Assembly: GCF_900113005.1 (NCBI RefSeq) | Contig: NZ_FONW01000003.1 | Coordinates: forward strand, 248,001 to 312,000 | Reading direction: 5' to 3' | DNA length: 64,000 bases | Origin: Sunxiuqinia elliptica | GTDB taxonomy: Bacteria > Bacteroidota > Bacteroidia > Bacteroidales > Prolixibacteraceae | Shown: positions 25,858 through 28,818 of the stretch, piece by piece | Layout: every line of letters begins with the position of its first letter | How positions within the stretch are numbered: the first letter of the stretch is position 1 | Position numbers and translations under genes: made by a program | Notes under the pieces: generated by a model | Seen by the model: only the letters and a program-made list of their open reading frames with translations | Told to the model about the DNA's origin: nothing | Databases searched by the model: none

Positions 25858-26634
25858 TTAACCTTCGCGTAATTTCCTGATTTCCTCTTTCATTTCGCTC
25901 AAAACGGTAGATATGTGCGCCGTTCCTGGGAACTCTGGCAAAGGAAGCTCAAAACTCAACACGCCTTTTGCTCGCCATAATTCCAATACCGAACTGATTG
26001 GAATTCGGTAAGCTTCATACTCTGGGTTATCCGACTTCAACAACAGCTCATTATTTTCCTTTATATATACCCGTTTATATACTAAACCTTCGTCACGGGT
26101 AATTAATACGTAGGTTTGTCCTTCTTTCAACTCATCAAGATCAACCAGGTATTCGCAAAAAACATAAGCCCCAGGAGCTACTGGCAACATGCTATCCCCA
26201 TTTAGCTGAAAAACCCGGTAAGTCCGGTTACGCGAAAGCTCAGGTATTGGCATATAGAAATGAGGTAATTCGCCAACATATTCTGGATCAGCATAGCCAC
26301 TCAAATAGCCAGCCGCAGCTTTCACCGGAACAATGGGAATACGTTCCTCATTATCGGGAGTAACAACAACCGACAATATTTGTCCCGGTCCATTTGATTT
26401 GGGCAGTAAAGAAGAAGGCATTTTTTCCAAATTGGTACCAATTAGCTCATCCAAACTTAACTTAAAAAGCTGAGCTAACTGTTGCATAACCTGAATTTTA
26501 GGCGTAGCCCTCCCCTCTTCATACGAACCAATTAAAGCTCGCTTAACGGCTAGTTGATCTGCCAACCGTTGCTGGGTAAGCTGATGCTTCCTACGCAAGT
26601 ATTTGATATTCTGAGCTAAATAATTCATCAACAC
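25858..26634 (-). CDS. XRE/S24 LexA-like repressor
   Basis: The 258-residue product has an N-terminal XRE helix-turn-helix (about 8-66, LTQQRLADQLAVKRALIGSYEEGRATP) and a C-terminal S24/LexA-like domain. The S24 serine is Ser148 in NGDSMLP and the lysine is Lys187 in VYKRVY. An Ala108-Gly109 pair lies 40 residues before the serine, as in self-cleaving repressors. So RecA-stimulated self-cleavage is possible but not shown. The start could be the Met at residue 3. It is divergent from a DNA-repair-linked radical-SAM gene with a palindrome between them, which suggests it represses both. Confidence 0.85.
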   Translation of the reverse strand: MLMNYLAQNIKYLRRKHQLTQQRLADQLAVKRALIGSYEEGRATPKIQVMQQLAQLFKLSLDELIGTNLEKMPSSLLPKSNGPGQILSVVVTPDNEERIPIVPVKAAAGYLSGYADPEYVGELPHFYMPIPELSRNRTYRVFQLNGDSMLPVAPGAYVFCEYLVDLDELKEGQTYVLITRDEGLVYKRVYIKENNELLLKSDNPEYEAYRIPISSVLELWRAKGVLSFELPLPEFPGTAHISTVLSEMKEEIRKLREG

Positions 26635-26660
26635 AAATTAATCTAAAAATATTAGCAAAA

Positions 26661-26675
26661 ACTAATTTTATTAGT
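26661..26675. promoter_or_regulatory. Probable operator of LexA-like repressor
   Basis: ACTAAT (26661-26666) TTT ATTAGT (26670-26675) is a perfect palindrome, and a further ATTAG half-site lies at 26651-26655. It sits between the two divergent start codons and abuts the -7 box of the radical-SAM gene. Binding by the adjacent repressor is inferred. Confidence 0.6.
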
Positions 26676-26682
26676 ATTTTTG
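26675..26682 (+). promoter_or_regulatory. Probable -7 promoter box of radical-SAM operon
   Basis: TATTTTTG matches TAnnTTTG exactly and overlaps the last base of the ATTAGT palindrome arm, so a bound repressor would block it. The -33 region (TTAGC near 26652) is a poor match. Confidence 0.5.
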
Positions 26683-26725
26683 ACTTGTCATTTTCATTCT
26701 TAAAACGCCGTAAAGATAGAAGCTA

Positions 26726-28033
26726 ATGCATGAAAAGGTTCAGAAAAAACTAAAAATTTTAGCAGATGCTGCAAAATATGATGTTTCCTGTTCCTCTAGC
26801 GGAAACAGCCGAAGCAATAGTCGCGGAGGCATAGGGAATGCCGTTGCTGCAGGAATTTGCCATAGTTTTACAGACGATGGGCGCTGCATTAGCTTATTTA
26901 AGATATTGATGACCAACCATTGCATCTACGATTGCGCCTATTGCATCAACCGGAGAACGAATGATCGGGCACGTGCCACATTTACTGTTCAGGAAATTGT
27001 TGATTTGACGATCAATTTTTACCGGAGAAACTATATTGAAGGACTCTTCCTTAGCTCCGGGGTCATCAAAAATCCGGACTACACCATGGAGCGCCTGATG
27101 CTTGTTGCGAAGAAGCTTAGGCTCGAAGAACGATTCAATGGTTACATCCACATGAAAGCTATTCCCGGAGCCAGCCAAGAGTTAATCCAAAACGCAGGTT
27201 ATTATGTCGACCGAATGAGCGTAAATATCGAGATCCCAACAGAACAGCAACTCGAAAAGCTGGCTCCGGAGAAAAACTACCCAAGCATTATCAGGCCAAT
27301 GAACCAGATCAGCGAGGGTATTTTGGCGTACAAAGAAGAACGAAGAAAGTACCGGCGCGTTCGCAAATTTACGCCTGCAGGACAAAGCACCCAATTGATT
27401 GTTGGCGCAAGCCCGGAGAGCGATCGACAAATTCTCCAGCTTTCATCCAATTTTTATCACCAACAGCAACTTAAGCGGGTTTACTATTCGGGATACCTCC
27501 CTGTTAACACCTATGATCAACGTCTCCCGGCCATTCAATCACCTCCTCTGGTTCGGGAAAATCGCCTGTACCAAAGCGATTGGTTGATGCGTTTCTATGA
27601 GTTTTCAGCTGATGAGATTCTAACTTCAGATCAACCATTTCTGGATTTGGATGTCGACCCAAAACTGGCCTATGCCCTTCGCAACCTGCATTTATTCCCA
27701 ATCGACATCAACCGAGCAGATTATCACATGCTTTTGCGCGTTCCCGGCATTGGTGTACAGTCTGCAAAAATGATTGTTGACGCTCGTCGGTTCAGACGTC
27801 TGACCAGCTATCATTTAAAGAAGATTGGCGTGGTTTTGAAACGTGCTCAGTATTTTATCACCTGTAACGAACTGGCTCCTCGAATGACTGACTGGGAGCC
27901 ACAGCGACTCAAAAGCCACATTGTTGCTGCTAGCCAAATGAAACGACGCAAAGCCGGAGATACGCAGTTGATGCTATTTCATCCCACAATGAACAGTCCG
28001 GCTATCCCAAAGCAACTTCATTCTAAAAATTAG
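26726..28033 (+). CDS. Putative DNA modification/repair radical SAM protein (UDG-linked)
   Basis: The 435-residue product is a radical-SAM protein whose cluster motif reads CIYDCAYC (CxxxCxxC), followed by INRRTNDRARATF. The C-terminus holds a helix-hairpin-helix DNA-binding motif (LLRVPGIGVQSAKMIVDARR). It matches, as I remember it, the family named for linkage to a uracil-DNA-glycosylase-like protein (TIGR03916). The biochemical activity of this family is not established. The next gene, 5 bp downstream, is its usual partner. A LexA-like repressor is divergent from it, which fits a damage-inducible unit. Confidence 0.88.
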   Translation: MHEKVQKKLKILADAAKYDVSCSSSGNSRSNSRGGIGNAVAAGICHSFTDDGRCISLFKILMTNHCIYDCAYCINRRTNDRARATFTVQEIVDLTINFYRRNYIEGLFLSSGVIKNPDYTMERLMLVAKKLRLEERFNGYIHMKAIPGASQELIQNAGYYVDRMSVNIEIPTEQQLEKLAPEKNYPSIIRPMNQISEGILAYKEERRKYRRVRKFTPAGQSTQLIVGASPESDRQILQLSSNFYHQQQLKRVYYSGYLPVNTYDQRLPAIQSPPLVRENRLYQSDWLMRFYEFSADEILTSDQPFLDLDVDPKLAYALRNLHLFPIDINRADYHMLLRVPGIGVQSAKMIVDARRFRRLTSYHLKKIGVVLKRAQYFITCNELAPRMTDWEPQRLKSHIVAASQMKRRKAGDTQLMLFHPTMNSPAIPKQLHSKN

Positions 28034-28038
28034 CTCTG

Positions 28039-28818
28039 ATGGCTTACCTGATTTATGATGGCAGCTTTGAAGGGTTTTTAAGCGTGGTGTTTCAATGCTA
28101 CCAACAAAAGCTTAGCCCAACGAATATTTGCAAAGAAAGTGATTTTCAGGAGGTATTATTCGCCCAAAAGCAAACTATTCCAAGCAACCCGAAACAGGCT
28201 CAACGCGTTTGGAAAGCGCTTCAAAAAAAGCTCCATCGGCGCAACCAGGAACTTCCTCTTCGAGCCTTTTTATCAGAACATCCAGGCATTGAGATGATGC
28301 TTTATCGCTTTATTCGGCGAGTATTTGATACTAGTTTTAGTATTGAAACAGACTATGGTGATTCGGATGTTCTGCAGCTCAAAAAGCTGGAAAGAAAGGT
28401 ACTGAAAGAAACCGCCCGCTTACTTCAGTTTGTTCGCTTTCAGGAAACAAGCGATGGTATTTACTTTGCACCAATTGAGCCGGAGTTTGATGTTTTACCC
28501 TTTACCCTTCATCATTTCAAAGACCGGTTTGCGGATCAACAATGGTTGATTTATGACCTTCGCCGCGATTATGGCTTTTACTACAACCTAAAGACAGTGG
28601 ATGAAGTTACGCTAAGCGAGAAAGCTTTTTCGACCATTGATGGTAAAGTAAACACCAACTTACTAGAAGAAAAGGAAGTGCATTATCAAAAGCTTTGGAA
28701 GAACTATTTTGACAGCATCAACATAAAAGAACGGAAAAACCTAAAGGTACAACGGCAATACATGCCACAACGCTACTGGAAATTTCTGCCCGAAAAATCA
28801 CCTAGAATAAAGGACTAA
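28039..28818 (+). CDS. DUF4130-type DNA metabolism protein (TIGR03915-like)
   Basis: The 259-residue product begins MAYLIYDGSFEGFLSVVFQCY, which is the typical start of the partner family of the UDG-linked radical-SAM protein (TIGR03915/DUF4130). The C-terminal part contains FTLHHFKDRFADQQWLIYDLRRDYGFYYN and the closing MPQRYWKFLPEK. In some bacteria this domain is fused to a uracil-DNA-glycosylase domain; here it is not, as the protein stops after DUF4130. It starts 5 bp after the radical-SAM gene, so the two are cotranscribed. Confidence 0.85.
   Translation: MAYLIYDGSFEGFLSVVFQCYQQKLSPTNICKESDFQEVLFAQKQTIPSNPKQAQRVWKALQKKLHRRNQELPLRAFLSEHPGIEMMLYRFIRRVFDTSFSIETDYGDSDVLQLKKLERKVLKETARLLQFVRFQETSDGIYFAPIEPEFDVLPFTLHHFKDRFADQQWLIYDLRRDYGFYYNLKTVDEVTLSEKAFSTIDGKVNTNLLEEKEVHYQKLWKNYFDSINIKERKNLKVQRQYMPQRYWKFLPEKSPRIKD

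Follow-up and report, generated by a model that had tools for sequence, protein, structure and literature searches.

What controls a radical-SAM/DUF4130 gene pair, annotated as a DNA-repair operon, when it stands back to back with the gene for a LexA-like repressor, and does that repressor serve the pair or a wider SOS response? The locus in question lies in a 64,000-nucleotide stretch of the Sunxiuqinia elliptica genome (assembly GCF_900113005.1, contig NZ_FONW01000003.1, positions 248,001 to 312,000 of the forward strand), referred to here as the window. An HTH_3/S24 repressor gene on the minus strand faces a TIGR03916 radical-SAM gene, followed by a TIGR03915/DUF4130 gene, on the plus strand. 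An initial annotation of the window had proposed that the repressor is of the self-cleaving kind, that a palindrome beside the promoter of the pair is its operator and that the pair, labelled as a radical-SAM/UDG-linked system, is induced by DNA damage. Comparison with related genomes leads us to regard the locus, with good though not full confidence, as a self-contained damage switch in which the repressor controls both divergent promoters through up to three operators.

The regulator proved to be a LexA-like S24 repressor, as annotated. It matches the HTH_3 and Peptidase_S24 profiles of Pfam, and its AlphaFold model (pLDDT 84.6, pTM 0.58) resembles the C-terminal domains of LexA (target TM-score about 0.7) as well as a helix-turn-helix (HTH) of the P22 c2 type (3jxb; target TM-score 0.86), with an additional helix at its C-terminal end. 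The Ser/Lys dyad and the Ala-Gly pair placed like a self-cleavage site are also present, but their numbering as 108-109, 148 and 187 was off: translation from the ATG at 26628 gives Ala106-Gly107, Ser146 and Lys185. This ATG is most likely the start of the gene, because the GTG at 26634 sits within the gene's own presumed -7 box. We gathered 95 distinct LexA-like open reading frames (ORFs) from Prolixibacteraceae, drawn from radical-SAM loci, other retrieved loci and 40 chosen extra regions; the Ala-Gly pair is present in all 95 and the dyad in 94, the remaining row being incomplete. A link to anti-phage defence was rejected, as the PADLOC hits fell on the regulator's HTH end, with none for the other two proteins.

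The annotated palindrome, ACTAATTTTATTAGT, stands at 26661-26675, and the 5.09-Mb genome contains no second exact match to it. It shares its final base with the start of TATTTTTG (26675-26682, plus strand), a perfect instance of TAnnTTTG, the consensus of the Bacteroidota-type -7 box, so that the promoter contact described by the initial annotation is accurate. The palindrome is real, but its count was too low: three CTAA-N5-TTAG sites lie within 120 bp, and these are all the sites that the window contains. Three sites per 64 kb are unremarkable alone, being reached by 14 of 100 shuffles; the chance of at least three within 120 bp is about 3e-10 (Poisson, from the 51 sites of the genome). Operators 1 and 2 are spaced by 19 bp, and operator 3 follows 88 bp beyond. 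Sunxiuqinia indica has the same three operators, at spacings of 19 and 87 bp, and an exact box, TAGATTTG, at the position matching the -7 box presumed for the repressor gene. Across the S. elliptica genome the motif is rare, with 51 sites compared with 201 for the reversed-pattern control.

CTAA-N5-TTAG is the operator of a non-canonical LexA of Bacteroidetes, supported in another species by gel shift and mutation according to the text of PMC8565304. Because the motif matches an operator shown experimentally elsewhere and is conserved in relatives, the palindrome is very probably the operator through which the repressor would control the repair pair. The evidence from relatives comes from 140 Prolixibacteraceae genomes, in 79 of which TIGR03916 scored above its cut-off; all 79 loci were examined. 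An S24 regulator faces the operon in 44 of them, of which 20 have a close one (over 50% identical to whichever of six query regulators is nearest) and the other 24 a distant one (37-43%). As the initial annotation had anticipated, the palindrome recurs before the gene pair, CTAA-N5-TTAG being present in 19 of the 20 loci with a close regulator. In a de novo count of palindromes it also ranked first at these loci (19/20, shuffle mean 0.45; 17/20 with a shorter stretch). Of the 19 loci whose CTAA operator is intergenic, 12 have an exact -7 box directly adjoining it (distance 0); towards lexA, only two of the 19 have an exact box no more than 10 bp away.

Four further loci (G072, G119, G123 and G124) carry a CTAA operator before the radical-SAM gene but show no lexA in the examined stretch, which speaks for a role of the site in controlling the operon and not in autoregulation alone. 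Close-type regulators are encoded elsewhere in three of these genomes, about 2.3 kb away on the same contig in G072 and on other contigs in G123 and G124; G119 gave weak matches only. Furthermore, among 247 Bacteroidia genomes, 21 (S. elliptica included) carry the radical-SAM gene at E <= 1e-50. The motif lies within 100 bp upstream in nine of the 20 loci outside the family (shuffle mean 0.076, maximum 2 in 2000), and one more locus, L252, has a site at codon 9 only. These sites agree with the published prediction, given in the text of PMC8565304, that COG4277-COG1573 operons are LexA targets. No LexA-like ORF was found within about 1.5 kb on each side of any of the 20 loci, and GGA-N5-TCC occurred before the gene in only two, both times more than 350 bp upstream.

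The third operator lies inside the radical-SAM gene, and 78 loci with a readable gene start were compared at this position (L123 was dropped). A CTAA operator at codons 9-13 accompanies an upstream one in 22 of 23 loci; it occurs in none of the 25 loci with the TGATAA-type site described below and in four of the 30 with neither operator. The site encodes a conserved peptide, LKILA or LNILA, so it could be thought an artefact of codon usage or protein sequence; two of the four loci that have it without an upstream operator (L120 and L159) belong to genus g2, and the other two (L062 and L070, the latter with its upstream region cut off) come from operator-using genera. Against such an artefact, which we consider very improbable, stands the choice of codons in the 23 loci where a CTAA operator lies upstream: Leu9 is CTA in 23/23 and Leu12 is TTA in 22/23, while CTA makes up 10% of the Leu codons elsewhere in the gene. 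The best of 25 other fully conserved Leu columns hold to one codon in 12/23 and 11/21 rows (a column was counted if it had 21 rows or more; the rows are related rather than independent, and the control columns share them). The same two columns are looser in the TGATAA group, with one codon kept in 15/25 and 19/25, and the peptide itself varies (LKILA 14, LNILA 7, LIILA 1, LSILA 1). We take the synonymous constraint at Leu9 and Leu12 to reflect selection on the DNA site. An operator placed downstream of the start could loop with the other operators or block elongation.

The loci with a distant regulator have a different operator. Their leading palindrome is GATA-N7-TATC (24/24, shuffle mean 0.2), which extends to TGATA-N7-TATCA in all 24 and, through ATAA-N5-TTAT, to TGATAA-N5-TTATCA in 22. 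An exact -7 box within 10 bp of the operator was found on neither side in any of these 24 loci. In four loci that were read (L056, L075, L085 and L097), a second, imperfect TGATA-type copy lies 23-24 bp upstream. Both states occur within genus g12: a close repressor with CTAA in G097 and G100, a distant repressor with a TGATAA-type site in G099, and a TGATAA-type site in G098, whose distant-clade regulator is encoded on a different contig. A tree built from 69 of the 95 ORFs (family members only, near-copies and short rows dropped, midpoint root for drawing) groups the distant radical-SAM regulators with UmuC-linked ones (support 98/93), apart from the close ones (100/100). Together, the mixed states of g12 and the tree argue that the repressor at the radical-SAM seat was exchanged along with its operator at least once.

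Similar arrangements recur with other partners. The 95 paralogues face a radical-SAM gene in 44 cases, umuC of two kinds in 15 and 6, imuA in 6 (named by N-terminal likeness and place beside imuB), dinB in 2 and no recognised partner in 22. Recognition helices differ among the paralogue classes in the rows inspected, and so do the operators: imuA loci (L233-L238) have GTTA-N7-TAAC in 6/6, as part of TTGTTA-N7-TAACAA-like sites, and umuC loci of the first kind have TGAT-N9-ATCA in 10/15; loci of the second umuC kind and of dinB gave no firm palindrome. The two regulators divergent from dinB come from genomes of genus g18 (L151 and L152), and two sequences fix no operator. Tentatively, and with doubts that slightly outweigh our confidence, we propose that the SOS response of Prolixibacteraceae is split into private, mutually orthogonal modules, in which each operon (radical-SAM/DUF4130, umuC, imuA-imuB, dinB) would face a LexA paralogue of its own, distinct in recognition helix and palindrome, and recA would be left outside. 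As the radical-SAM seat is held by two LexA clades, the selected unit would then be the damage-gating of the operon and not a particular repressor. Such a natural series of apparently private modules, with matched changes of repressor and operator at one seat, offers a test of how SOS regulons fragment and is suited to the study of how repressor-operator specificity evolves.

For the S. elliptica locus, the following sequence of events is envisaged. Of the three CTAA-N5-TTAG sites, operator 1 lies next to the -7 box presumed for the repressor gene, operator 2 directly touches the -7 box that serves the operon, and operator 3 falls within the first codons of radical-SAM; the repressor would occupy some or all of them and, judging from motif identity and conservation, would thereby repress both divergent promoters. 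On DNA damage, RecA filaments would trigger self-cleavage at Ala106-Gly107 by the Ser146/Lys185 dyad, releasing the repressor gene and the radical-SAM/DUF4130 operon, as the family precedent suggests. Damaged or modified DNA would then be the target of the radical-SAM enzyme, which ends in a helix-hairpin-helix, and of its DUF4130 partner.

The textbook SOS response has one repressor over many genes. In this family, the repressor seems instead to be dedicated to the radical-SAM/DUF4130 operon. Strict CTAA-N5-TTAG was found before neither recA nor dinB in 15 family genomes (0/15 for each gene; the recA promoters are L193-L207) drawn from both operator groups, for which reason we speak of a LexA-type repressor and not of an SOS master regulator; recA may lie outside its control. 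The alternative, a global regulator that acts on numerous SOS genes by way of degenerate operators, with the operon as one target among them, is unlikely, although regulators using this motif family govern large regulons in Hymenobacteraceae, Sphingobacteriaceae and Chitinophagaceae (text of PMC8565304). The genome has a single PF00717 (S24) match and a single match to Y-family polymerases, and its own dinB shows no CTAA site even with one mismatch. Of the 48 other genome sites, 47 were looked at (39 within ORFs of 70 codons or more, 8 intergenic), and no SOS gene was recognised by eye behind them (mnmG, threonine dehydratase and the like). The commonest palindromes, counted with no shuffle control, reached only 8/15 recA and 6/15 dinB promoters and were mostly A/T-only patterns. 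One-mismatch CTAA sites, which would favor a degenerate regulon and weigh against a dedicated switch, lie at -226 before the S. elliptica recA (1/15) and before six of the 15 dinB genes. Four of the latter are identical, CTAATATATTAAG, at -113 to -116 in four of the five g6 genomes examined (L164, L166, L170 and L174), where the radical-SAM repressor is of the distant kind. Also on that side of the balance, "private" covers only recA, dinB and the eye-read sites; 35 of the 79 radical-SAM loci have no detectable LexA neighbor in the examined stretch (some, such as L070 and L123, are cut by a contig end); 30 of 78 carry neither upstream operator; and genus g2 keeps the gene with neither in 19/19 loci, two of which have the codon-9 site, so that this site can exist without an upstream one. 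Finally, damage induction, binding and cleavage are carried over to this lineage from the family, and the AlphaFold model, with a pTM of only 0.58, shows residues 102-111, the Ala-Gly pair among them, as a helix and lends no support to the cleavage geometry, a cleavable state being neither displayed nor excluded.

The helical Ala-Gly pair would also suit a repressor whose S24 domain responds to a cue unrelated to damage or is inefficient at cleavage, leaving the operon to answer redox, phage or metabolite signals, and the authors of PMC8565304 themselves, in its text, acknowledge the lack of non-cleavable mutant data, cleavage not being demonstrated there. We consider this quite improbable in view of the conservation of the Ala-Gly pair and the dyad noted above, and of the fact that the recognised partners of the LexA paralogues are DNA-damage genes. 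Moreover, according to that text, mitomycin C induces two regulators of this kind in other species, along with all targets tested but the recA of S. agarivorans.

In the setting of known systems, LexA-type control of a radical-SAM/DUF4130 operon is known biology in a new lineage, since the COG4277 operon is already a predicted target of the CTAA-group LexA. The idea of the initial annotation, a LexA-like repressor with its operator before a repair pair, is supported; its novelty is not. The S. elliptica repressor resembles the CTAA group (as described in the text of PMC8565304) in its HTH_3 and S24 domains, Ala-Gly pair, Ser/Lys residues, extra C-terminal helix and CTAA-N5-TTAG in its own promoter, a likeness of domains, residues and operator. 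It differs in having three operators, one of them intragenic, in its divergent pairing with the target and in the lack of a strict motif before recA or dinB. That text also gives both of its groups as absent from Bacteroidales, whereas Sunxiuqinia is a member of the Bacteroidota family Prolixibacteraceae (NCBI order Marinilabiliales), and it mentions that regulons are small close to clades lacking the regulator. The LexA paralogue of Elizabethkingia anophelis (same source) likewise has an opposite-facing partner, an error-prone polymerase, and its own diverged dyad with an N5 spacer (TTAC-N5-GTAA); here the partner is the radical-SAM/DUF4130 operon, and relatives show two regulator clades in the seat. 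With E. coli LexA, the repressor shares the S24 C-terminal fold and residues, while its N-terminus is of the phage-repressor HTH kind and not a winged HTH. What is new is the three-operator design with an intragenic site, the direct contact of operator and -7 box in 12 of 19 loci, the apparently private wiring and the exchange of the repressor together with its operator. We found no description of the intragenic or the TGATAA operator in the literature searched, which for PMC8565304 means its text apart from supplements and figures, and a search for LexA paralogues in Bacteroidota returned nothing.

The radical-SAM protein scores 665 bits against TIGR03916 (cut-off 343.5), matches Pfam Radical_SAM and ends in a region scoring 26.7 bits for HHH_3, slightly below the cut-off of 27; the second protein scores 273 bits for TIGR03915 and matches DUF4130 at E 1.4e-53. 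Gene content, gene order and DNA-repair annotation are those of the radical-SAM/UDG-linked operon (TIGR03916 + TIGR03915; COG4277-COG1573), but no UDG (uracil-DNA glycosylase) domain belongs to the operon in Prolixibacteraceae. All 68 complete DUF4130 ORFs of the family are 253-261 residues long, and none of the 25 that were profile-scanned has a UDG domain; all 25 match DUF4130, the only Pfam family common to them. Two UDG-family genes lie elsewhere in the S. elliptica genome, and the strict operator was not found in the stretch examined around each. Our literature search on TIGR03915, TIGR03916, DUF4130 and COG4277 found only PMC8565304 and PMC3765255, the latter predicting that DUF4130 is an enzyme related to mutagenesis and linked to radical-SAM proteins of the SplB-like kind and to UDGs. 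LexA-type control by two separate clades, in the absence of UDG, ties this uncharacterised pair closer to DNA damage.

Structural comparison of the DUF4130 protein (model pLDDT 82.6) gave no solid Foldseek match. The top rows were DHH phosphoesterases (best E 1.6e-3, TM-score 0.39, none at E <= 0.001), and a degenerate DHH/RecJ-like fold was considered; a profile comparison against the two DHH proteins that the genome encodes returned a probability of 0.2%, and, DUF4130 being the sole Pfam family common to the 25 scanned members, the idea was set aside as a weak lead. No convincing sequence relatives were found in the PDB (best E 0.072 for the radical-SAM protein and 0.29 for the DUF4130 protein).

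Table 1. Features of the divergent repressor/radical-SAM locus, in window coordinates
Feature	Position	Strand	Basis
Non-canonical LexA-type repressor, 256 aa	25858..26628	-	HTH_3 and Peptidase_S24 Pfam matches; ATG start
Presumed -7 box of repressor gene, TTAATTTG	26634..26641	-	One mismatch to TAnnTTTG, read from sequence
Operator 1, CTAAAAATATTAG	26643..26655		CTAA-N5-TTAG motif scan
Operator 2, CTAATTTTATTAG (palindrome of the initial annotation)	26662..26674		CTAA-N5-TTAG motif scan
-7 box of radical-SAM operon, TATTTTTG	26675..26682	+	Exact TAnnTTTG
Radical-SAM protein TIGR03916, 435 aa	26726..28033	+	CX3CX2C; C-terminal helix-hairpin-helix
Operator 3, CTAAAAATTTTAG, within radical-SAM ORF codons 9-13	26750..26762		Motif scan and conservation
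DUF4130/TIGR03915 protein, 259 aa, no UDG domain	28039..28818	+	TIGR/Pfam profile matches

A few minor observations complete the picture. An identical copy of the 13-mer of operator 2 lies elsewhere in the genome (L033:2001-2013), 51 bp before the gene for a secreted protein that we take to be SnoaL-like; it was rejected as a second target, the strict motif being absent in all three readable orthologues of the genus (L273, L275 and L276, with L274 left aside). Sites of other paralogue types were seen before the recA of G104, with one mismatch, and before the S. elliptica dinB, with two. The divergent genes are flanked by ftsY on one side and, on the other, by small ORFs that look, by eye, like ribosomal protein genes, and 5 bases separate the two ORFs of the operon. 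Among its nearest named relatives, the regulator is 73% identical to that of S. indica, 62% to that of Gaoshiqia and 50% to that of Puteibacter.

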